Below are positions 203 to 14,971 of a DNA stretch of 23,590 nt, one piece after another. The notes beneath the pieces are model-generated. The model made no database searches and was not told the DNA's origin. It saw nothing but the letters and a program-made list of their open reading frames with translations. The stretch is from a candidate division Zixibacteria bacterium SM23_81. Lineage in GTDB: Bacteria > SM23-81. The stretch spans positions 1 through 23,590 of the forward strand of contig LJUY01000047.1 of assembly GCA_001304015.1 (NCBI GenBank). Direction: 5' to 3'. Within the stretch, counting starts at the first letter, position 1, and the number at the start of each line of letters is the position of its first letter. The position numbers and the translations under genes are program-made.

Positions 203-300
203 ATAAGCGGATCAACTCGGACCCAGCCACGCAGGGTTTGAATGTGCTACTTGGAAATATTTTGTGCGTGGCAGCGCCGCTGATGCCCCAGCCGTTGGCG
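203..300 (+). other. attC-like recombination site (degenerate), attC-0
   Basis: Two nested inverted arms are visible: GCCACGCA (226-233) with TGCGTGGC (265-272), and AGCGG (206-210) with CCGCT (277-281). The right half (280-300), from CTGATGCCC to GTTGGCG, matches the right half of the clearer site at 1823-1843 at 16 of 21 positions. The R' core box is GTTGGCG at 294-300. The left core box is poor (CATAAGC rather than a box ending in AAC), so the site may be decayed. Its position just after a stop codon and its orientation agree with an integron cassette end. Confidence 0.5.
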
Positions 301-1837
301 ATTACCAGCATTTTAATTTTGGACACCAGTAAAGAAAGGATCAATTAAATGGTACTAAACTATATATGGATCGCATTCTTCCTGATCGCATTTCTCGTAG
401 CATCAATCAAACTCATATTTTTAGGTGATGCCGAAGTCTTTCCCAGAATTATTGAAATGACCTTTGACATGGCCAAAACCGGGTTTGAGCTCTCAATTTA
501 TCTTACCGGTATCATGGCCTTTTGGCTGGGAATAATGAGAATCGGTGAAAAGGGCGGCATCATTCGCGTTTTTAGCCGGCTGGTTGGTCCCTTCTTTTCC
601 CGTTTATTTCCTGAAATTCCTAAAGACCACCCCGCTACCAGCTCTATGATCATGAACTTCTCCGCCAATATGTTGGGTTTGGACAACGCCGCTACGCCTC
701 TGGGACTAAAAACCATGAAGGAGATGCAGGAAATCAATCCTAAGAAAGACACCGCTTCAAACTCCCAGATAATGTTTCTGGTGTTAAATACTTCCGGTTT
801 AAGCATCATTCCTTTAACAATTTTAATAGATCGCTCGGTCGTCGGTGCCACCAATCCCACCGATGTTTTTATTCCCATTATGTTAGCGACCTTTTTTAGC
901 ACTTTAGCCGGTTTAATTGCAGTTTCTATCTATCAGAAAATAAACCTCTTCGACAAGGTGATACTCTCCTATTTGGGTGGAATTACTCTGTTCATGACTG
1001 GAGTCATCGTGTATTTTTCTCTCATCCCCCAGGAACAAATTGCTGAAACATCAAATGTTGCCAGCACATTTATCATTTTTACTGTCATTATCAGTTTCGT
1101 GTTTTTAGCTATGATCAAAAAAGTAAATATTTACGAAGCCTTTATCGATGGCGCCAAAGAAGGTTTTGGGATTGCGATAAAAATAATTCCTTACTTAGTG
1201 GCAATTTTAGTGGCAATTGGTGTCTTCCGCGCGTCCGGAGCAATGGATTATGTGGTAAAAATCATCTCATCTTCCATTTCCTTTTTCGGCATCAATGCTG
1301 ATTTTGTGGAAGCACTGCCAACTGCCTTAATGAAACCTCTCAGCGGTAGCGCCGCCCGGGGAATGAACCTGGAAATCATGAAAACCTACGGACCGGATGC
1401 TTTTGTCGGCAGACTTTCCAGCATTTTCCGAGGTGCGACCGAAACAACCTTCTATATCATTGCCGTATACTTCGGGTCGGTTAATATTAAAAAAACCCGC
1501 TATGCCGTAACCGCCGGATTAATAGCGGACGCTGCCGGGATAATTGCCGGAATTTTTATTGGCTATTTGTTTTTTCACTAAATGAAAGAATATCTTTTCT
1601 TTTTCTTTTCTTTTTCTAAAGGGACTCAATCACTGTTCCCAGTGTGACACCTTTCCTTGTCAGCGCCTCGTGGATTGGTCTAGGCAGAATGAATCTTACG
1701 GTAAAGCACCTCAGTGGCTGAGGAAGATGCGTGAAAGTTCTGAGAGTTGAGGTCCTTGTATGCTACTGCCTAACAAGCGCATTCAGACGACGGCGGTCAA
1801 AACAAACCCCGCCTCGCCGCAACTGATGCGCAAGGCG
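295..1837 (+). mobile_element. Putative integron gene cassette carrying the spmAB-like gene
   Basis: The segment runs from the predicted cleavage point inside the R' box of the attC-like site at 203-300 to that of the site at 1768-1843. It has one gene in the orientation expected for a cassette. Bases 1582-1767 hold no gene; they start with a pyrimidine-rich run and otherwise show nothing I recognise. Both limits depend on the two attC calls, and the left one is weak. The A+T-rich composition differs from the next segment. Confidence 0.4.
349..1581 (+). CDS. Fused SpmA/SpmB-like nucleoside-recognition (Gate) domain membrane protein
   Basis: This 410-residue integral membrane protein corresponds to SpmA (residues about 1-200) joined to SpmB (about 210-410), the two spore-maturation proteins of Bacillus; fused forms occur in non-sporulating bacteria. 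Family hallmarks are visible in both halves: NFSANMLGLDNAATPLGLK in the first, and MKPLSGSAARGM followed by GPDAFVGRLSS and GATETTFYIIAVYFGSV in the second. Several hydrophobic segments lie between. Gate-domain proteins are thought to move nucleosides or other small solutes, but the substrate of this type is unknown. The ATG at 349 has AAAGGA 8 bases upstream. The gene is A+T-richer than the purine cluster and sits between two attC-like sites, so it may be cassette cargo or simply a flanking chromosomal gene. Confidence 0.88.
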   Translation: MVLNYIWIAFFLIAFLVASIKLIFLGDAEVFPRIIEMTFDMAKTGFELSIYLTGIMAFWLGIMRIGEKGGIIRVFSRLVGPFFSRLFPEIPKDHPATSSMIMNFSANMLGLDNAATPLGLKTMKEMQEINPKKDTASNSQIMFLVLNTSGLSIIPLTILIDRSVVGATNPTDVFIPIMLATFFSTLAGLIAVSIYQKINLFDKVILSYLGGITLFMTGVIVYFSLIPQEQIAETSNVASTFIIFTVIISFVFLAMIKKVNIYEAFIDGAKEGFGIAIKIIPYLVAILVAIGVFRASGAMDYVVKIISSSISFFGINADFVEALPTALMKPLSGSAARGMNLEIMKTYGPDAFVGRLSSIFRGATETTFYIIAVYFGSVNIKKTRYAVTAGLIADAAGIIAGIFIGYLFFH

Positions 1838-1843
1838 TTAGCC
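1768..1843 (+). other. attC recombination site, attC-1
   Basis: The site has the full attC order. R'' is GCCTAAC (1768-1774), followed by AA and L'' GCGCATTCAG (1777-1786). After a 36-base variable part come L' CTGATGCGC (1823-1831) and R' GTTAGCC (1837-1843). L'' pairs with L' over nine bases once a single T is looped out, which is the extrahelical base expected in a folded attC strand. Integrase would cut between G1837 and T1838. The length of 76 bases is within the usual range. Confidence 0.78.
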
Positions 1844-3051
1844 GAAGATAAGGAGGAACCTTACATGAGCAGAAGAAAGACCACATTAACACTGTTCGTG
1901 CTGATCACGCTCTTGGCGGCGTGCAGTGACATTCCGGCCTCAGAAGAAAAGAGGAAGGAGACGCTACTCAAGGGATTTCCGGAAGCGTCCCTTACGATCT
2001 TTCCCGTGACGCATAGTAAGATCACGGGACCGGTGGACAAGTCACCTGAGTATCGCAAGTTTGCCGATGCCTTGGAGCGCGCGTTCCGTGAGGAGGCGCG
2101 TGAGACTGCTGGCATCCTAGGGCTCCTGTTGGAAGAGAAAGGCTATGACAGGTTCGAGATGACGGATACAGAGTTTCGGTTCCCTGAGGGAAAGGCCGCG
2201 CGCAAAGAGAGAGCGGCCGCCTTCGGCAAGTTCGTCAGTGAGCTGAACTTGATGACCGACTACGCGCTGTGTGCTGAGTTCACCCTCCACATCGAGAAAA
2301 GCTACCAGGAAGTATACTGGGTGATGGTGGACGCAAAGGGAGGCATCGTGTGGGAAGATAGCCAGGGGCCGGATGATCCTGACTTCTTGGTAGAGAATGA
2401 GCTAGCGGGTTGTGAGCTGGTATGCAGACGCCTGACGCCGGTCATGGGTTTGGACAAGTTGCCCAAGAAGGAACTGTCCGAGGACAAGAAAGAGGCGCTT
2501 CGAGAGATCAGGGCGAAAAAGCCGCCGAGCCGGTCTGAGTTCGAGGCAATCGAGAACCGGCTGGAAACGATGAAGAAAGCCAGGGGCACCGCTCGGGTGC
2601 TGATCCGCCCCACTCGGGTAGATGGCGATCACACAGAGCCGAAGCGGGCAGCACATTTGGCCGAGCTGATCAATGAAGCCGGACTCTGGCTAGCCACTGT
2701 GGCGCAAACGGGTCCGGTTCTGGAGGGTTATGGCTGGCCAGACGAGTCGGTGGTCCTCTGGTTGTTCGCTCGCGCCGCAAGGGAACATGCGCAGCAACAC
2801 CCCGCCGACAGCGACTACGTTCTGTTTGCCGACTACTGGCTGAATCCACACGGGGAGGTATGGGCTGTGCATTTTGTGGTTCTTGACCGCGCCGGCGAGT
2901 GGGTGATCGTTGATCTCCAGAATTCGCATCAGAAGGACTTCCAACGGATCAGCCCCAAGACCCTGGCGGACTGCGACCGTCTCGTGTTGGAGCGACTCAA
3001 GGAATACTTACGCTAACAAGCTCTTGCAGCAGGACGCGCTGAAGCGCGCCG
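1838..3051 (+). mobile_element. Integron gene cassette carrying a lipoprotein gene
   Basis: The segment is bounded by the predicted cleavage points of attC-1 and attC-2 and carries a single gene. It starts 27 bases into the cassette, and its stop codon lies inside the R'' box of attC-2, both usual in cassettes. The 5' end of the cassette (TTAGCC) is complementary to the R'' box at its own 3' end (GCTAAC), as expected of an element that closes into a circle. No integrase gene is present in this window. Confidence 0.65.
1865..3016 (+). CDS. Lipoprotein of unknown function (cassette cargo)
   Basis: The 383-residue product starts with a lipoprotein signal peptide: basic MSRRK, a hydrophobic stretch, then the lipobox LLAAC with Cys20 as the lipid-modified residue, so it should be exported and membrane-anchored. 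The ATG at 1865 is preferred over an in-frame ATG at 1760 because AAGGAGG lies 7 bases upstream and only this start puts the signal peptide at the N terminus. The earlier start would also read through the attC site. The mature part is mostly soluble and charged. Residues about 75-180 and 230-380 look like two related halves, each with a segment resembling W-V-M/H-V-V-D near its end, but I recognise no family. The stop codon TAA (3014-3016) lies within the R'' box of the following attC. It is G+C-richer than the preceding gene, suggesting a different source. Confidence 0.8.
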   Translation: MSRRKTTLTLFVLITLLAACSDIPASEEKRKETLLKGFPEASLTIFPVTHSKITGPVDKSPEYRKFADALERAFREEARETAGILGLLLEEKGYDRFEMTDTEFRFPEGKAARKERAAAFGKFVSELNLMTDYALCAEFTLHIEKSYQEVYWVMVDAKGGIVWEDSQGPDDPDFLVENELAGCELVCRRLTPVMGLDKLPKKELSEDKKEALREIRAKKPPSRSEFEAIENRLETMKKARGTARVLIRPTRVDGDHTEPKRAAHLAELINEAGLWLATVAQTGPVLEGYGWPDESVVLWLFARAAREHAQQHPADSDYVLFADYWLNPHGEVWAVHFVVLDRAGEWVIVDLQNSHQKDFQRISPKTLADCDRLVLERLKEYLR

Positions 3052-3057
3052 TTAGCT
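3011..3057 (+). other. Short attC recombination site, attC-2
   Basis: R'' GCTAAC (3012-3017) and R' GTTAGC (3051-3056) are perfect complements. L'' GCTCTTGCAG (3020-3029) pairs with L' CTGAAGCGC (3039-3047) at eight of nine positions once one G is looped out, at the same place as the looped base in attC-1. The terminal loop is only about nine bases, making this 47-base site shorter than typical attC sites. The start TAACAAGC and the TTAGC end are shared with attC-1. A further GCTAAC (3055-3060) and GTTAG (3085-3089) pair just downstream may be the remnant of another site. Confidence 0.65.
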
Positions 3058-3100
3058 AACGCATAGGTTCAGCTGGTCGTTCCAGTTAGAGGACAACCGG

Positions 3101-3358: not shown

Positions 3359-3871
3359 ATGATAGATGAAAAGTTCAAACAGATCATTCAGTCCAAAACC
3401 GGCTGTGCCGTGGTGCTGGCCGGCTCAGATAGCGATCGGGCTCATGTTGACAGGATCGTCGCATCGCTGAAGGCATTTGATATTCCCCACCGGGTCAGAA
3501 TTTGTTCCGCCCACAAACAGCCCGTCGAGCTCATGAATCTTATCGAGGAGTACAACGCCATTGGCGGATCCGTCGCTTTTATCGCCGTGGCCAGTGGCAC
3601 AGATGCCTTGTCGGGAATCCTGTCCTTTCACGCCCTGGGGCCGGTGATCAGTTGTCCGCCGGATGGGCCCAATGAGAGCTGTCTGACCAACCCCCCGGGG
3701 AGCTCCAACGCGTACATCGAAAGACCGGAGAATGTGGGAAAATTCATCGCCCAGATCTACGCAGGTATAAATCCTACCTTCCGAAGGCACTTAGAGCAAA
3801 TAAAGGCACAAAAGCTCCACAAGTTACGCAAGACGGATGCAGATCTGAGGGCGAAAAGCAAGGGCACCTGA
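3359..3871 (+). CDS. purE: PurE, class II-type AIR carboxylase
   Basis: PurE makes carboxyaminoimidazole ribonucleotide (CAIR) in purine synthesis. The nucleotide-binding motif GSDSD is followed by SAHKQP. The Lys in SAHK, the segment VAFIAVASGTDALSG and the phrase PVISCPP match the CO2-using class II enzymes (the AIR-carboxylase half of animal PAICS and Treponema PurE). Class I enzymes instead have SAHR and GAGGAAHLPG and use N5-CAIR from PurK. Class II enzymes do not need PurK, and no purK is seen here. The C-terminal segment KFIAQIYAGIN also resembles PAICS. I use the ATG at 3359 (170 residues). A GTG at 3329 would add ten residues, and neither start has a clear ribosome-binding site. The gene opens the purine cluster and stops two bases before purO. 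The family is secure; class II is an inference from motifs. Confidence 0.88.
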   Translation: MIDEKFKQIIQSKTGCAVVLAGSDSDRAHVDRIVASLKAFDIPHRVRICSAHKQPVELMNLIEEYNAIGGSVAFIAVASGTDALSGILSFHALGPVISCPPDGPNESCLTNPPGSSNAYIERPENVGKFIAQIYAGINPTFRRHLEQIKAQKLHKLRKTDADLRAKSKGT

Positions 3872-3873
3872 GC

Positions 3874-4656
3874 ATGTCCTCACGGGGTTTGGAAGCTCTG
3901 GCGGGAATGGAGTATCCCGGCCGGGTCATCATCATGGGGAGAGATCCCAGCGGCGATCACGGCGTGGTGGTTTATGCCATAACGGGCAGAAGCCCCTCCA
4001 GTCAGGCTCGGAGACTGATCTACGATGGTCAAGAGACGGTGAGAAGCCAGGGCACCGATCCGGAGGGAATTAAAGAGGGAAACGAGCGGCTTCTCATCTA
4101 CAACTGCATCAGGAAATTCCCTGACGGTCTGGCCGTCAGCAACGGCACCCAGACTGACCTCATCTTGGAGACCATAGAGGATCTCAGGGACCGAGGGCTC
4201 CATCTCGCCCCTACGGAGATCCTGCAGCGAGCCTTCGCTCGGCCCCATGTGATGGCGGGAATCGACCTGACCAGCTACGAGCCCGACGAGCCGACATTCA
4301 CCACCAGGATCAGCGGGTGTCTGATGAACGGCGCCGCCCTGAGTATGGCGAAGCGTGCACCGGATGGCACGACTGAGAGGGAATACTTCGAAGTTCCCCT
4401 GAGTCCAGGAGAGGGTAAACTCATAACCACCTACGCTGGAGCCAACGTGGATCCTTTGCCCTCGTTCCGAGGCGAACCGCTCAGCGTCCAACTTGAAGGG
4501 CGAAGTGCCGAAGAACAGGCAGAGGCTATCTATAACTGTTTGGCTCCCAAGGATCCGCAAAAGGACTTCCGTGTCGCAGTGGCCGTCGCCTTCTCTCATC
4601 TGAGGACTTCGCAGATGGAGGTGTCGATCATCAACAGGCATGCGGGGGAAGGCTGA
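3874..4656 (+). CDS. purO: PurO, archaeal-type IMP cyclohydrolase
   Basis: PurO closes the ring of FAICAR to give IMP, the last step of purine synthesis. It is the archaeal-type enzyme, unrelated to the N-terminal domain of bacterial PurH, and is also found in some bacteria. The 260 residues start with the family pattern YPGRVIIMGRDPSG, followed by VVVYAITGRSPSSQARR. Further along are LLIYNCIR and SNGTQTD, then the late FTTRISGCL. Length is near the usual PurO size. The ATG at 3874 lies two bases after the purE stop, so translation is probably coupled. The gene directly downstream supplies AICAR transformylase, so the pair does the work of bifunctional PurH. A long open frame on the opposite strand (3880-4641) is a shadow of this gene. 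Confidence 0.9.
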   Translation: MSSRGLEALAGMEYPGRVIIMGRDPSGDHGVVVYAITGRSPSSQARRLIYDGQETVRSQGTDPEGIKEGNERLLIYNCIRKFPDGLAVSNGTQTDLILETIEDLRDRGLHLAPTEILQRAFARPHVMAGIDLTSYEPDEPTFTTRISGCLMNGAALSMAKRAPDGTTEREYFEVPLSPGEGKLITTYAGANVDPLPSFRGEPLSVQLEGRSAEEQAEAIYNCLAPKDPQKDFRVAVAVAFSHLRTSQMEVSIINRHAGEG

Positions 4657-4657
4657 G

Positions 4658-5842
4658 ATGAGAGGAACGGACGTTACGAATATGAAAAGGGCCTATCGTA
4701 CGTCTGTGGAGGGCGAGTTTCCCCAGGAGCTGCGCATCAATCTGCAAAAGGAACTTGACCTGCGATACGGCGAAAATCCGAACCAGCCAGGTGCCCTGTA
4801 CAGATTCCAGGAAACTTCCCTAGCGGTGCTCACCGACATCCGTCTGGCCAAATCCGGAAAGGGAGGGCTCTCGGCCACCAACCTGATGGACGTATGCCGA
4901 GCCTTGGGGATCCTGAAGTTCTTTCCAAAGCCCGCCGTGGCGGTGATGAAACACGCCTCGCCATCCGGCTTTGCCACGCAGCATGGGGGCAGCAGTCTGG
5001 CTCAAATCTACCAGCTGGCCAGAGATGTGGACGCCCGCAGCGCTTTCGGCTCCGTCGTGGTCACCAATAGACCTGTGGATAAAGCAACCGCCCAGGCCAT
5101 CATGTCTTCTTTCGTGGAAGCAGTGGCGGCTCCCGACTTCGAAGAGGGCGCCATGGAGATTTTCGGTCGCAAAAAGGACATCCGGGCCATCCTGTTCTCC
5201 AATCTCGACAAACTACCTAAATTCAAGGGGGACGACGTCACGGGCTGGTATGATCTCAAGGTCTTGCCGACGGGGAGGCTTGTCGTCCAGGCTCCCTACC
5301 TGAGCAGCATCAGGGGACCACGGGATTTGATCTGTGATCCCCTGGTGAGAACAGACCAGGAGAGCTACGTGGTCCAGCGAGATCCGACGCCAACTGAGTT
5401 GGTGGATTTGCTCACGGCCTGGTATGTCAACATCGGGGTCAGCAGCAACAGCGTCGTCTTCGTGAAAGACGGCGTGACCGTAGGCATCGGCTCGGGCCAG
5501 CGAGAGAGGGTGGGTGCGGTGGAGGAGGCCATCTCCCGGTCCTATCAGAAGGCCCTGGATCGAAAGAGAGTCGCACAGAAAGCCGAGAGCTTCTCCTGGG
5601 CGCCCGCAGACATGAGCTGGGAGCAGATGAAAGCGGAGCTGAAAGCAAAGCCCCTGGAGGGATCGGCCATGTCCTCCGATGGCTTTTTCCCCTTTCGCGA
5701 TTCCATCGACACGGCCGCGAGGGAGGGCGTCACGGCGATCGTTCAGCCAGGCGGTTCGCGGCGAGACCATGAGATTATCCAAGCGGTGAACGAACATAAG
5801 ATGGCTATGGCTTTTACGTTGGAAAGATGCTTCGCACATTAG
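4658..5842 (+). CDS. purH: Stand-alone AICAR transformylase (PurH C-terminal domain)
   Basis: This 394-residue protein matches the transformylase domain of PurH/ATIC, which transfers a formyl group from 10-formyl-THF to AICAR. The N-terminal IMP-cyclohydrolase domain is absent, not truncated: the frame starts just before the domain's opening motif RYGENPNQPGALY. The catalytic Lys-His pair is in AVMKHASPSGF, followed by DARSAFGSVVV, SSNSVVFVKDG with GIGSGQRERV, and the closing SDGFFPFRDSID and AIVQPGGSRRD. The last block, usually MVFTGMRHFRH, is changed here to MAFTLERCFAH. The ATG at 4658 follows the purO stop by one base and has GGGGGAAGG upstream; an in-frame ATG at 4640 would overlap purO. 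Together with PurO it completes IMP synthesis. The stand-alone domain is sometimes called PurV. Confidence 0.9.
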   Translation: MRGTDVTNMKRAYRTSVEGEFPQELRINLQKELDLRYGENPNQPGALYRFQETSLAVLTDIRLAKSGKGGLSATNLMDVCRALGILKFFPKPAVAVMKHASPSGFATQHGGSSLAQIYQLARDVDARSAFGSVVVTNRPVDKATAQAIMSSFVEAVAAPDFEEGAMEIFGRKKDIRAILFSNLDKLPKFKGDDVTGWYDLKVLPTGRLVVQAPYLSSIRGPRDLICDPLVRTDQESYVVQRDPTPTELVDLLTAWYVNIGVSSNSVVFVKDGVTVGIGSGQRERVGAVEEAISRSYQKALDRKRVAQKAESFSWAPADMSWEQMKAELKAKPLEGSAMSSDGFFPFRDSIDTAAREGVTAIVQPGGSRRDHEIIQAVNEHKMAMAFTLERCFAH

Positions 5843-9165: not shown

Positions 9166-12136
9166 TCGAATAGAGGTGGCGCTAAAAATACCAGATGCTC
9201 GCGCCCTGGTGAGAAAAAGGCACCTGGAGGGAATGGGTCGTTCCATCAAAATCACCGGGGTATGGTTGGTGGATGTGTACACCGTAGACGGAGATCTCAG
9301 CGGAGCTCAGCTGAAGGCCATTGCCGGTGTGCTGTCAGATTCCATCACTCAAAGGGCGAAAGTGGATCAGCCTCAGAGTCCAGCTAAATTTGACTGGGCC
9401 ATTGAGGTGGGTTTTCTTCCCGGGGTCACCGATAACGTGGGGAACACAGCCAGGGAGATGATTGAGGATTTCCTAAAAGTAGAATTCCGTCCCGGTCAGG
9501 GCGTTTACAGCTCTCAGATCACCTTTTTGTGCGGAGATCTCACCGCAGATGATGTGGCGACAATTGCGAGGAGCCTTGCCAACCCATTGATTCAACGGGT
9601 GCACATCAAAAGACGAGATGAATTTCAAGCCTATCGCGGCATGGATCTGGTTATCCCCAGCGTCCATCTGGATAGTAAGCCCACCGCGGACATGGTGGAG
9701 ATTCTCGGTGCGGCCGATGAGGAATTAGCCCTCATAGGCAAACGGGGCATTGCCGATGCGGATGGAACCAGAAGAGGCCCGTTAGCATTGGATCTTACCT
9801 ATATGAAAGCGATCCAGGAACATTTTAAAGAACAAGGAAGGAACCCATCGGACGTGGAGCTGGAGTCCATCGCCCAGACCTGGTCTGAGCATTGCAAACA
9901 CACCATCTTTTCGGATCCCCTGGACGAAATTCGGGACGGCTTGTTGGCCACATTTATCAAAGGAGCTACCGAGAAAATCAGACAACAAAAGGGTAAGCGT
10001 GACTTCTGCGTCTCGGTGTTTCACGACAACTCAGGGGCCATCCTTTTTGACGATGATCATCTGATCACCCACAAGGTAGAGACCCACAATAGCCCCTCAG
10101 CCTTGGACCCCTTTGGAGGCGCCATCACGGGAATCGTTGGAGTGAACCGGGACGCCATTGGATTTGGCCTGGGCGCAAAACCGATAGCGAATGTATACGG
10201 CTTTTGTTTCGCCGATCCGAGAGATACAACGATCCTCTATAAGGGTTCCAACTTCACCCAAAGAATGCTTTCTCCCCGCATGATCATGGACGGTGTCATA
10301 CATGGTGTTAACGTCGGGGGGAATAACTCCGGCATTCCCACATCTCAGGGCTTTCTCATCTTTGACGAAAGCTACCGGGGTAAACCACTGGTATTTGTGG
10401 GCACCATCGGTCTCATACCTCAAAAGAGCCATGGAAGATCGGCACACATGAAGCGGGCGCGACCAGGGGATTGGATCGTCATGGCCGGAGGGCGTGTGGG
10501 CAAAGATGGCATCCATGGGGCTACTTTCTCATCAGAGGTTATGGATGCTGGCAGTCCAGCAGCTGCCGTGCAGATTGGAGACCCTATTACCCAAAAGAAA
10601 TTGAGCGATGCCATCGTCAAGGAGGCGCGAGACCAGGGACTTTACAACAGCATAACAGATAACGGCGCTGGTGGCCTGTCCTGCTCCGTTGCGGAGATGG
10701 CCAGGGAATGCGGAGGATGTTTTGTGAGGCTCGATGAGGTTCCCCTCAAGTATCCGGGATTAAAACCCTGGGAGATATGGTGCTCAGAATCGCAAGAGAG
10801 GATGACCTTGGCAGTTCCCCGAGAAAAATGCGGCCAGTTATCCGATTTGCTGAGCCGAAGGGGTGTGGAGGCAACCATCATCGGCGAATTCACGAATTCG
10901 GGACGGTGCATCGTTGAGTACAACGGCCAGCGGGTGATGGACCTGGACATGGAATTCCTGCACAATGGTTTGCCCAAAGAGGCGATGCAGACGGTAGAAT
11001 GCCGTCAAGTGCATAGAGAACCGGACATTCCCATGGCCGATGATCTCACCGACTGTTTCCATGCTATGCTGGCGCGGCTCAATACAGCCAGCTTCGAGTT
11101 CATCTCGCAACAATACGACCACGAAGTCCAGGGTGGCTCGGTCATAAAGCCACTACAGGGTAGAGGCCGGGTGAATGGCGACGCCACCGTGATCCGGCCC
11201 CTCTTGAACTCATCTAAGGGCATCGCCATCTCTCAAGGTATATATCCCACCTACAGCAAGATAGACACGTATCACATGGCCGCCTGCGCCATCGACACGG
11301 CCATCAGGAACCTGGTGGCCGTAGGGGCTGATCTCGAAAAGCTGGCCTTGCTGGATAACTTCTGTTGGTGCAGCTCCGATGAACCGGAGAGGCTAAGCCA
11401 ACTGAAACATGCCGCTCAGGCTTGCTACGATTACGCCATCGCCTACGGAAGCCCGTTCATCTCAGGTAAAGACAGCATGTTCAACGACTTCAAGGGCTAC
11501 GATGAGGACGGAAAAGAGATAAAGATCTCCGTGCTGCCCACCTTGCTCATCTCGGGCATCGGAATTTTGGAGGATGTGGGCAAGGCCGTCTCCCTGGATG
11601 CCAAGTTTCCCGGCGATCTGATCTACGTTCTCGGGGAGACATCTGAACAGCTGGGAGCCTCGGAATACTATGCCCTGTGGGGAGAGAAGAGAGGCCAGCC
11701 CGCCACCGGCAGCTCTGTGCCCCAGGTGGACGCCAAGAGCAATCTCAATCTGTACCGAGCCTACTCCCGATGCCTTCAGGAGGAGTTGATCGCATCGGCA
11801 CAGAGCATCCACCGAGGTGGTTTAGCGATGGCTCTTGCCAAGACGGCCATGGGCGGGATGCTGGGCATCGATGTCTGGCTGGAAAGTCTGCCCGGCACGC
11901 TTTCCCGGGAAGACGTCGCTCTTTTTTCAGAAAGCCAGGGCAGGATTTTGGCGACGATTCATCCAAATAAGAGGAAATCGTTTGAAGATCTGATGAGAGG
12001 CATTCCCCTGGCGCAGATAGGAACGGTGAGAGAGGATGATCTTATTATCATGAAAGGCCTGAGGGGAAATGTGATCATAAACACGGCGCTTCAGGGAGCT
12101 TTACAATCGTATAAGTCGACCTTTCGGGATTATTGA
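9158..12136 (+). CDS. purL: PurL, FGAM synthase with N-terminal PurS-like region and no glutaminase domain
   Basis: PurL makes FGAM from FGAR and ATP using ammonia from PurQ. The 992 residues start with about 165 residues resembling two PurS-like repeats (YTVDGDLS, then IEVGFLPGVTDNVGNTARE and NPLIQRVHIKRRDEF). The AIR-synthase-type core follows, with QTWSEHCKHTIF (241-252) and HKVETHNSPSALDPFGGA (305-322), and a second half with PLQGRGRVNGDA and GKDSMFND. Its size is between the small PurL (about 740 residues, separate PurS) and the large fused form (about 1,300 residues, including glutaminase). The glutaminase is the next gene, purQ. This architecture occurs in Dehalococcoides-type genomes. 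The start overlaps the end of purF by 8 bases, and its stop is two bases before the purQ ATG. Confidence 0.94.
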   Translation: MANRIEVALKIPDARALVRKRHLEGMGRSIKITGVWLVDVYTVDGDLSGAQLKAIAGVLSDSITQRAKVDQPQSPAKFDWAIEVGFLPGVTDNVGNTAREMIEDFLKVEFRPGQGVYSSQITFLCGDLTADDVATIARSLANPLIQRVHIKRRDEFQAYRGMDLVIPSVHLDSKPTADMVEILGAADEELALIGKRGIADADGTRRGPLALDLTYMKAIQEHFKEQGRNPSDVELESIAQTWSEHCKHTIFSDPLDEIRDGLLATFIKGATEKIRQQKGKRDFCVSVFHDNSGAILFDDDHLITHKVETHNSPSALDPFGGAITGIVGVNRDAIGFGLGAKPIANVYGFCFADPRDTTILYKGSNFTQRMLSPRMIMDGVIHGVNVGGNNSGIPTSQGFLIFDESYRGKPLVFVGTIGLIPQKSHGRSAHMKRARPGDWIVMAGGRVGKDGIHGATFSSEVMDAGSPAAAVQIGDPITQKKLSDAIVKEARDQGLYNSITDNGAGGLSCSVAEMARECGGCFVRLDEVPLKYPGLKPWEIWCSESQERMTLAVPREKCGQLSDLLSRRGVEATIIGEFTNSGRCIVEYNGQRVMDLDMEFLHNGLPKEAMQTVECRQVHREPDIPMADDLTDCFHAMLARLNTASFEFISQQYDHEVQGGSVIKPLQGRGRVNGDATVIRPLLNSSKGIAISQGIYPTYSKIDTYHMAACAIDTAIRNLVAVGADLEKLALLDNFCWCSSDEPERLSQLKHAAQACYDYAIAYGSPFISGKDSMFNDFKGYDEDGKEIKISVLPTLLISGIGILEDVGKAVSLDAKFPGDLIYVLGETSEQLGASEYYALWGEKRGQPATGSSVPQVDAKSNLNLYRAYSRCLQEELIASAQSIHRGGLAMALAKTAMGGMLGIDVWLESLPGTLSREDVALFSESQGRILATIHPNKRKSFEDLMRGIPLAQIGTVREDDLIIMKGLRGNVIINTALQGALQSYKSTFRDY

Positions 12137-12939: not shown

Positions 12940-13038
12940 TTGGCTTCGCTTATCGATTTCCGGTGTCAATGAGCGTTACGTTGGTCGTTTGTCGGATTTC
13001 GCCGGTCGTCTTTTGAATGGCAAAAGCCATTACTATTT

Positions 13039-13127
13039 TGTCATGCCTGGGCAGGCAGGCATCTCAGAATGAGAATCACCCCTCGGTCATCCCACAAAGT
13101 GAGATTCCTGCATACGCAGGAATGACA
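13039..13127 (+). repeat. Palindromic repeat, copy A (89 bases)
   Basis: The copy starts TGTCAT and ends ATGACA. It has two hairpins: left ATGCCTG/CAGGCAT and right ATTCCTGC/GCAGGAAT with an ATAC loop. A centre of about 40 bases containing CGGTCATCCC lies between. It resembles paired REP-like elements. It lies about 100 bases after purQ. The first part of this gap (12940-13038) shows nothing else I can name. Confidence 0.85.
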
Positions 13128-13219
13128 ATCTGGATCGTCATTCGGCTCTTCCAAAAAGCATCTAGATTTGTTTTGACAATAATGGACTAATAAATCAAGC
13201 TACGTAGCTTAACCTCTGC

Positions 13220-13308
13220 TGTCATGCCTGCGTAGGCAGGCATCTCGGAAGGAGAGTCACCCTTCGGTTGTGCCTCAAAGTGAGATTCCTGCATTCGCAG
13301 GAATGACA
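13220..13308 (+). repeat. Palindromic repeat, copy B (89 bases)
   Basis: Same length, order and ends as the copy at 13039-13127. The left hairpin is ATGCCTGC/GCAGGCAT with a GTAG loop and the right is ATTCCTGC/GCAGGAAT with an ATTC loop. The centre differs at several positions, while the arms are nearly identical. Confidence 0.85.
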
Positions 13309-13349
13309 TTTCTTTAATAAAAATGCAAGAGTAGCAAAACAGTAATTAG

Positions 13350-13381
13350 TTGTCAGAGCCAAAAGCAAGCGGGAATGACAA
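13350..13381 (+). repeat. Internally deleted palindromic repeat, copy F
   Basis: TTGTCA (13350-13355) and TGACAA (13376-13381) frame a short stretch ending GCGGGAA, which matches the right edge of the full copies. It seems to be a remnant with the centre lost. It lies 15 bases before the GIY-YIG start codon. Confidence 0.5.
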
Positions 13382-13396
13382 CTAGGAATTGGCTAG

Positions 13397-13687
13397 ATGA
13401 CGAAATCATATTATGTCTACATCATGACAAATAAGCGCAACACTGTTCTTTACATTGGAATTACCAACAACCTGGTTAGAAGAGTGTTCGAGCATAAGAA
13501 TGATTTAGTAGACGGTTTCACAAAAAAGTACCGCTGCCACAAACTGGTCTGGTATCAGGAAACATCAGATGTTAAAAGTGCCATTATCAAGGAGAAACAA
13601 ATGAAAAAGTGGAAACGAGAATACAAGGAAAATGCCGTCATCAAAATAAATCCGGGATGGAAGGATTTATCCGCTGATCTATTTTGA
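13397..13687 (+). CDS. Small GIY-YIG family nuclease (COG2827/UPF0213-like)
   Basis: The 96 residues are a single GIY-YIG domain. The family signature appears as YYVYIMTN, then VLYIGITNNLVRRVFEHK, with the catalytic Arg in the LVRR helix. The helical part IIKEKQMKKWKR carries the metal-binding Glu, and the ending KINPGWKDL is typical of this small family. Such stand-alone proteins are thought to nick or cut DNA, but their cellular role is not established. The gene is flanked on both sides by copies of one palindromic repeat (13039, 13220 and 13350 upstream; 14619 and 14861 downstream). It is isolated from the purine genes. The IS1595-type element begins 24 bases after its stop. The ATG at 13397 is the natural start; the upstream GGAATT is a weak ribosome-binding site. 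Confidence 0.9.
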   Translation: MTKSYYVYIMTNKRNTVLYIGITNNLVRRVFEHKNDLVDGFTKKYRCHKLVWYQETSDVKSAIIKEKQMKKWKREYKENAVIKINPGWKDLSADLF

Positions 13688-13703
13688 ATAACAAAAGACA
13701 TTA

Positions 13704-13711
13704 TAATTTTA
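13704..13711. repeat. Left target-site duplication of the IS
   Basis: TAATTTTA stands directly before the left inverted repeat and is repeated exactly at 14613-14620 after the right one. Eight bases is the usual duplication length of the IS1595 family. Confidence 0.92.
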
Positions 13712-14612
13712 GGCAATTGACTAAGGTTTGGCACTGATGTTATATTGGTGCCATGGATCTATCTATTTATGAGCGTTTAATTAAAAGCGAGACATCGGCT
13801 CGAAAATACTTGTTGGGATTTTGCTGGAAAAACCAACAGCGATTTTGCCCCCGTTGCCGGAGCCGAAAGTTCTATCGATTGAAGGATGGACGCAGGCGTT
13901 GTGCCCGCTGTGGCTACCCGTTTCATGACTTCACAGGACGGTGGATTAACCGAGGAGCCCTGCGTCCAGATCAATGGCTGCGGTTGATCAAGCTGTTTGA
14001 GTTGGAGCTTTCAGCTCGCAAGATGGCCGTGCAGTTGAAGCTCTCTTATGCCACCGTATACAAGGCGCTCACCACCATCCGGCAGAGTATTTGGGTTCAT
14101 GCGCAGCAGGATGCTGGCAGTTTGTTGGGTGGTGAGGTGGAGGTGGATGAGACCTACTTTGGCGGTCGGCGCAAGGGCAAGCGAGGACGTGGTGCTGCTG
14201 GCAAGGTCCCTGGTTTCGGCATCTTGGAGCGCCAGGGCCAGGTCAGCGTGGAAGTGGTCCCCAATGTGCAGGCCAATACGGTGCTGGGGTTGGCCATCAC
14301 CAAGGTACGCCGTGGCAGCATCGTCTATACCGACCGCTATCGGATCTATGACGCCTTGATGTTTTGTGGCTACCGGCACTTGAAGATCGATCACGGAAAA
14401 CATTTCTCCCGTGGTCGTGTGTACATCAATGGCCTGGAAGGGTTCTGGAGCTGGGCCAAGGAATGGGTCATCAAACACCACGGTATCTCTGCTCACCGAT
14501 TCCCTCTGTATCTCAAAGAACTGGAGTTCAGGTACAACCACAGAGACCAAGACATCTTCACCATCATTGCTCAATACCTCTGTGACTTTGTGCCAAATCG
14601 TGACTAATTGCC
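13712..14612 (+). mobile_element. Complete IS1595-family insertion sequence (901 bases)
   Basis: The element has 23-base imperfect terminal inverted repeats (13712-13734 and 14590-14612), matching at 17 of 23 positions, with identical outer ends GGCAATT and identical inner ends TTTGGCAC. One transposase gene fills it, and exact 8-base duplications TAATTTTA flank it. Structure, intact gene and perfect duplication suggest a recent insertion. It landed between the GIY-YIG gene and a palindromic repeat, at that repeat's left edge. Confidence 0.93.
13753..14607 (+). CDS. IS1595-family (ISXO2-like) transposase
   Basis: The 284-residue transposase has an N-terminal zinc ribbon with Cys32/Cys35 (CPRC) and Cys50/Cys53 (CARC), a helix-turn-helix-like stretch near residues 85-110 (SARKMAVQLKLSYATVYKAL) and a DDE-type nuclease fold. 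Acidic residues fit the family: Asp132 in VEVDETYFGG and Asp194 in YTDRYRIY. The third site is in the segment INGLEGFWSWAK, where this family often has Asn plus Glu or Lys. The basic patch RRKGKRGRG follows the first Asp, as is typical. Length is normal and no frameshift is seen, so it is probably active. The stop codon (14605-14607) lies within the right inverted repeat. Confidence 0.94.
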   Translation: MDLSIYERLIKSETSARKYLLGFCWKNQQRFCPRCRSRKFYRLKDGRRRCARCGYPFHDFTGRWINRGALRPDQWLRLIKLFELELSARKMAVQLKLSYATVYKALTTIRQSIWVHAQQDAGSLLGGEVEVDETYFGGRRKGKRGRGAAGKVPGFGILERQGQVSVEVVPNVQANTVLGLAITKVRRGSIVYTDRYRIYDALMFCGYRHLKIDHGKHFSRGRVYINGLEGFWSWAKEWVIKHHGISAHRFPLYLKELEFRYNHRDQDIFTIIAQYLCDFVPNRD

Positions 14613-14620
14613 TAATTTTA
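14613..14620. repeat. Right target-site duplication of the IS
   Basis: TAATTTTA, identical to bases 13704-13711. Its last two bases are also the first two of palindromic repeat copy C. Confidence 0.92.
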
Positions 14621-14707
14621 TAATGCCCGCGCAGGCAGGCATCTCAGGAGGAGAATCACCTTTCGGTCATCCCGCAAAGTGAGATTCCTGCATTCGCAGG
14701 AATGACA
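14619..14707 (+). repeat. Palindromic repeat, copy C (89 bases)
   Basis: It has the same length as copies at 13039 and 13220. The left end is changed (TATAATGCC instead of TGTCATGCC), and the right hairpin ATTCCTGC/GCAGGAAT and the ATGACA end are intact. Without the IS this copy would start about 30 bases after the GIY-YIG stop codon. Confidence 0.82.
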
Positions 14708-14724
14708 AATTGTTTTAATATGCG

Positions 14725-14850
14725 CTAATAATAATCACCTAGCGATGCTTTTTTAGCCAGGTGAATTTCATATCCACAACTCTCTAGCTTACGCAGATGT
14801 TGAGAAGCAATTGGCCATGGAGAGTAATATATCAAAGTTGAATCCAATGA
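14725..14850 (-). pseudogene. Possible gene remnant, 41 codons without a start
   Basis: The minus strand is open from a TAA (14851-14853) to a TAG (14725-14727). The peptide includes LIYYSPWPIASQHLRKLE and then CGYEIHLAKKASLG, which looks more protein-like than its surroundings. There is no ATG, no recognisable domain, and repeats flank both sides. It may be the tail of a gene destroyed by repeat or IS activity, or chance. Nothing else was recognised between the repeats at 14619-14707 and 14861-14971. Confidence 0.2.
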
Positions 14851-14860
14851 TTAAAAGGAT

Positions 14861-14971
14861 TGTCATGCCTGGGCAGGCAGGCATCTCAGAATGAGAATCA
14901 CCCCTCGGTCATCCCTCAAAGTGAGATTCCTGCTCCCCGCCTGCGCGGGGACAAGATTCGTAGGAATGACA
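14861..14971 (+). repeat. Palindromic repeat, long form, copy D (111 bases)
   Basis: The left hairpin and centre match copy A, but the right hairpin is enlarged by about 22 bases holding its own palindrome, CCCCGC/GCGGGG, followed by ACAAGATTCG. The ends are still TGTCAT and ATGACA. Confidence 0.82.

Follow-up and report, generated by a model that had tools for sequence, protein, structure and literature searches.

The window analysed here is the whole of contig LJUY01000047.1 (C57; 23,590 bp), one of 99 contigs in a 3.07-Mb genome of candidate division Zixibacteria bacterium SM23_81 that is 92.6% complete with ~4% contamination. On its forward strand the window opens with the 3' end of an ORF (1–186), which is followed by a gene for a 410-residue Gate (nucleoside recognition) membrane protein (349–1581; PF07670, 4.3e-21), a gene for a 383-residue lipoprotein (1865–3016) and a purE-like gene (3359–3871; PF00731, TIGR01162), the first purine gene on the right flank. 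The original prediction was that the three genes to the left of purE each precede an attC-like site in the same orientation, at 203–300 (attC3), 1768–1843 (attC1) and 3011–3057 (attC2). The three same-strand genes are indeed followed by these sites, the first gene being a 61-codon tail at the contig edge; of the sites, two are real and one is a half-site. The array is truncated on the left because base 1 is a contig end. Base composition changes along the contig, from 42% GC in the Gate gene to 57% in the lipoprotein gene, with a step near 1600–1700, and is 53% for 3329–23590. Further to the right, at 13035–14950, a 94-nt repeat of the TGTCATGCCTG..GGAATGACA type occurs in four dispersed copies around a GIY-YIG gene and an IS1595-family transposase gene (13753–14607).

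attC sites and the cassettes they bound

The R'', L'', L' and R' boxes, EHB, UCS and VTS are described features of attC sites (PMC8946536). In attC1, the boxes R'' (1768–1774, GCCTAAC), L'' (1777–1786, GCGCATTCAG), L' (1823–1831, CTGATGCGC) and R' (1837–1843, GTTAGCC) are arranged as GCCTAAC-AA-GCGCATTCAG-(ACGA)-...-(CAA)-CTGATGCGC-AAGGC-GTTAGCC, with one extra-helical T, an unpaired central spacer (ACGA/CAA) and the crossover at G1837|T1838, as predicted for a site with all four boxes and a looped-out T. The corresponding boxes of attC2 are R'' (3011–3017, CGCTAAC), L'' (3020–3029, GCTCTTGCAG), L' (3039–3047, CTGAAGCGC) and R' (3051–3057, GTTAGCT), arranged as CGCTAAC-AA-GCTCTTGCAG-CAGGACGCG-CTGAAGCGC-GCC-GTTAGCT, with the crossover at G3051|T3052 and an extra-helical G at the same offset as the T of attC1. 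The looped-out G had been foreseen at this place, however, the description of the core boxes as perfectly complementary was slightly too strong, since there is one mismatch in the L arms (T/C) and another in the outermost R pair. With 47 nt, attC2 has almost no terminal structure, the shortest training sites of our models being 53–57 nt. The minus-strand fold beats most shuffles for both sites, with a z-score of -2.37 for attC1 and a modest one for attC2. Inverted R''/R' and L''/L' boxes, AAC/GTT cores, an extra-helical base, an unpaired spacer and a foldable bottom strand are thus all present at 1768–1843 and 3011–3057, which by these features are genuine attC sites at which recombination by IntI is predicted.

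Directly downstream of attC2, and adjoining it, lies an inverted attC-like right arm (3054–3073, minus strand), whose 3'-arm PWM score of 17.5 bits is the highest in the window. It mirrors the attC2 right arm in a palindrome, GCTGAA-N6-CGTTAGCTAACG-N6-TTCAGC, at 3038–3073; no partner arm for this half-site was found by eye.

The two sites delimit a complete gene cassette of 1214 bp from crossover to crossover (1838–3051, forward strand). It holds a single ORF, the lipoprotein gene, which starts 27 nt from the left cassette boundary and ends with TAA (3014–3016) inside the attC2 R'' box, in agreement with the original observation of a stop codon within R''. The encoded protein has the lipobox LLAAC and two similar domains (an internal repeat), and no Pfam or NCBIfam match was found for it. 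G028 and a Phycisphaerae MAG have chromosomal homologues (48% over the C-terminus and 32%, respectively) with no attC nearby; the gene was not found in plasmids, nor the cassette DNA in phages, nor an exact attC1-like pattern in viral contigs. The predicted structure (mean pLDDT 79, pTM 0.58) gives only weak fold matches to envelope lipoproteins such as PelC, GNA1162, LpoB and CsgG.

The Gate gene is probably a second cassette gene. To its left, attC3 is recognisable only by its right arm (280–300, forward strand; CTGATGCCCCAGCCGTTGGCG), which matches the right half of attC1 at 16 of 21 positions, the sole such match in the 23.6 kb and one that never arose when the first 400 nt were shuffled 1000 times. 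The proposal of a decayed third site therefore holds for this arm and not for 203–300 as a whole, which fails every covariance model (below 0 bits with R2, missing from the R3 list for the window), folds no better than shuffles and lacks a recognisable left arm. The ORF tail (1–186), for which no Pfam family scored above its cutoff and whose translation suggests a beta-barrel-like C-terminus, ends 17 nt before 203–300, and the Gate gene begins 49 nt after it; this spacing is as expected of cassettes. With moderate confidence, 203–300 may be regarded as at best a decayed attC, a half-site.

Covariance models and controls

A string-matching attC finder was dropped, as it gave about one false positive per 8 kb of shuffled DNA, and covariance models were used instead. 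Training neighbourhoods came from 60 IMG/VR contigs encoding IntI and from class 1 and cyanobacterial plasmid integrons, and the sites of the window were excluded from the training of all models. Model R1 was built from 27 attC sites upstream of integrases in these neighbourhoods, mainly of the GGGAC type, and is considered validated because, with few exceptions, the dense attC series that it detects in integrase loci show the strand and side that are expected from the position of intI. R1 was insufficient alone, with low scores and attC1 missed genome-wide, and was broadened by R2, built from 108 of the R1 matches in integrase neighbourhoods, and by R3, built from 61 sites from many phyla, including one attC of the same genome (contig C28).

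A covariance search had been named as the check on the original prediction, and with each of the three models built here the two sites rank top with a clear gap to the next match. With filters off, R1 assigns 21.3 bits to 3011–3057 and 15.5 bits to 1768–1843 (next 7.4), and R2 assigns 21.4 bits to 1768–1843 and 16.3 bits to 3011–3057 (next 7.7). R3 gives 36.3 bits (E 3.7e-7) and 29.8 bits (E 1.5e-5), respectively, followed by 11.1 bits; the genome-wide E-values are 4.8e-5 for 1768–1843 and 1.9e-3 for 3011–3057. The R3 sites minus the one from C28 also served to train a simpler score based on the two arms; it selects just these two sites, and neither of their scores was reached in any of 200 dinucleotide-shuffled windows. 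With respect to specificity, R2 produced no match at E<=1 in 58 of 78 diverse genomes and sites in the other 20. A search of Rfam returned no RNA family covering the array sites.

Integrase remnants and attC loci elsewhere in the genome and phylum

The original prediction found no integrase in the window, and this extends to the genome. None was recognised among the window ORFs, none was located on C57 by a whole-genome integrase search (TIGR02249), and no intact integron integrase exceeded the IntI family cut-off in the assembled genome. The search recovered only two C-terminal intI remnants, one at a contig end (C19:30580-30756; 72% identical to IntI1 over 47 residues) and one in which the catalytic tyrosine reads tryptophan (C26:127052-127231). 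Full-length 'integrase' matches on C9 and within C19 were rejected as XerC/D-like, lacking the IntI-specific insert. In the C26 locus, L172, the remnant (5052–5231) and an attC-like site (9661–9758) lie ~4.4 kb apart on one strand.

The search for further attC sites suggested at the outset was likewise run genome-wide and revealed a second locus on C28 (C28:8763-8819), with 34.0 bits in R2, for which it was not a training site, and 42.8 bits in R3, of whose training set it is a member. A second, decayed site on C28 scores 13.2 bits, and both its arms match attC1 at ~42 of 50 positions. Other candidates lie on C26 (26.1 bits) and, weaker, on C49 (22.1 bits). Arms are shared among attC1, the attC3 right arm and the decayed C28 site, and less so with attC2 and C28:8763-8819. 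The motif CTGATG-N4..18-GTTRGC, chosen after inspection, occurs among the loci scanned only in attC1, in attC3, on C28 and before an acetyltransferase gene on contig C95 (see below). The lineage appears to have once had an integron, the integrase of which has since decayed to C-terminal remnants.

The phylum is poorly sampled, and our comparison set comprised four genomes, the source genome (G000) and three others. G002 has a larger IntI piece with an IntI-specific patch and two contigs with three attC each, G001 has several attC sites, and G003 has one weak site beside small genes at a contig end. From these sites and IntI pieces it follows that integrons were active in the phylum. In one of the G002 loci (L017; G002:C75:15000-27370), three attC, with cassettes that have no assigned function, come after an IntI C-terminal fragment on the same strand. 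Another G002 array (L112; G002:C113:28000-34912) has one cassette whose product joins a cold-shock domain to a Shedu (SduA) C-terminal domain, and a second that encodes NUDIX plus a polyprenyl-synthase-like domain. Further arrays in the phylum, several in number, carry cassettes that may be of interest.

Probable position in the purine operon and possible origins of the array

In G003, which belongs to the same family, the gene order is purM-purE-IMP cyclohydrolase, and purM ends ~18 bp before purE. In the source genome, purM, preceded by purB, lies at the right end of C95, where, ~360 bp further on, an AAC(6')-Ia-like acetyltransferase gene is cut by the contig end (L152 6120–6637). With 114 bits, this gene falls short of the 265 bits set as cut-off for the named resistance enzyme; it is directly preceded by CTGATG-N12-GTTAGCC, which resembles the attC1 right arm, and is probably a cassette. 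From synteny with this one relative, we infer that C95 joins C57, and the simplest reading of the order would be purB - purM - [acetyltransferase ... ORF - attC3 - Gate - attC1 - lipoprotein - attC2] - purE. The array would then probably split the purine operon between purM and purE; while it does adjoin purine genes as originally described, the array is probably inside the cluster and not merely beside it. If C95 and C57 adjoin, the flanks leave ~360 bp on the left between purM and the first cassette-like gene and no space on the right, and therefore intI would have no room at either end. Conserved synteny of the cassette genes in relatives without the sites, which was to count against the prediction, was not observed, since neither the Gate gene nor the lipoprotein gene occurs in any of the other three genomes compared and purM adjoins purE in G003. 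The G003 spacer is too diverged from the source genome to define a target base for attG insertion. For the end steps of the purine pathway, two separate genes at 3874–5842 stand in place of a fused PurH: one encodes an IMP-cyclohydrolase-like protein (PF07826), and the other, an ORF of ~400 aa, resembles an AICAR formyltransferase.

A CALIN is defined by at least two attC less than 4 kb apart in the same orientation with no intact IntI nearby. The sites at 1768–1843 and 3011–3057 are both on the forward strand and within this distance, and no intact IntI was found on C57, for which sequence is available from base 1 rightward, or in the assembled genome; in a complete integron, intI with attI and Pc would adjoin the array. 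With high confidence, we consider the array a CALIN of at least two attC-bounded cassettes and a decayed third site, inserted by past IntI activity, most likely between purM and purE. The form of attC bound by IntI is the folded bottom strand, which is joined to attI and, less efficiently, to other GNT sites. The bottom strand of each attC in the array would form a hairpin; cleavage by IntI would take place at G|TTAGCC and G|TTAGCT and so account for capture of the lipoprotein cassette (1838–3051), and recombination at G|TT would leave exactly the boundaries found. The array was probably inserted by IntI in the past and is probably inactive at present. The lipoprotein cassette could still be excised with IntI supplied in trans, as CALIN cassettes remain mobilisable in this way (PMC9668308; PMC12444791).

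Two points speak to some extent against the CALIN assignment: attC2 is shorter than any training site, and the lipoprotein has its homologues outside cassettes. The palindromes might instead be terminators, REP-like repeats or chance structures, and the window does hold other dispersed palindromic repeats, in addition to the modest folding z-score of attC2; however, the conserved boxes, an extra base with identical offset in both sites, the unpaired spacer, the orientation, the placement relative to the ORFs and the model scores all fit attC, none of the 200 shuffles does, and no T-run follows the sites, making this explanation extremely improbable. That the left 1.7 kb (42% GC) is foreign DNA, or was attached to the native purine contig by misassembly, is also very unlikely. 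The GC step and the contamination of the MAG would allow for such a join, but the step falls at a cassette boundary marked by an attC, and a cassette-like gene on C28, a contig which carries an attC with arms like those of attC1, is also low in GC (43%).

Two further alternatives concern the source of the cassettes. A complete integron may have been broken by the assembly, in which case attI and an intact intI would lie either between C95 and C57 or in whatever part of the genome is missing; the array does run off the contig edge, so that intI could sit in unassembled sequence, intI remnants accompany an array in G002, and CALINs are overstated in draft genomes (IntegronFinder 2.0; PMC9024848). 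We regard this as unlikely, given that, with C95 and C57 as neighbours, nothing would occupy the place where intI normally lies, and that intI was found as remnants only. Somewhat less doubtful is the possibility that the cassettes stem from an integron elsewhere and entered the purM-purE spacer at a chromosomal G|TT site of the attG type (not attI), without a resident integron having lost its intI. Descriptions of attG insertion exist (Loot et al. 2024, cited by PMC12444791 and PMC12901181), and the missing room for intI at either end and the at least two dispersed attC loci in the genome are in line with it; on the other hand, the shared attC arms and decayed sites fit, and would favour, long residence of the array, no empty strain displays the target, and the attC-like right arm before the AAC(6')-like gene suggests earlier cassettes and not a bare target. 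Also tentative, and slightly harder to sustain, is the proposal that the lost integrase delivered the cassettes into the short purM-purE spacer and that operon transcription now expresses them, in place of attI and Pc.

As a CALIN in the sense of IntegronFinder, the array shares with others the at least two attC within 4 kb in one orientation, one ORF per cassette, the missing intact IntI and a location, common in drafts, at a contig end; it differs from them in its inferred position within a housekeeping purine cluster, in one very short and one decayed site and in coming from a poorly sampled phylum. In the sedentary chromosomal integrons of Vibrio and Xanthomonas, attC sites within a genome resemble one another, as some of those in the source genome do, and in Xanthomonas intI decays while cassettes remain (PMC12444791). 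Here, by contrast, there are few cassettes, at least two dispersed loci, and intI remnants of ~55 residues that are not beside the array. With attG-mediated insertion, a process described by Loot et al. (2024) and a candidate reading here, the locus has in common that its cassettes lie in the chromosome and lack an accompanying intI or attI.

CALINs are a known kind of array, and the present one is a further example, from a poorly sampled phylum. Such sites can be recovered by attC models whose training sites come from other taxa. If the cassettes are indeed expressed by operon transcription, a housekeeping operon would serve as a cassette platform in place of attI and Pc. The locus provides an example of integron decay, in which attC-bounded cassettes outlast an integrase reduced to fragments and probably interrupt a biosynthetic operon.
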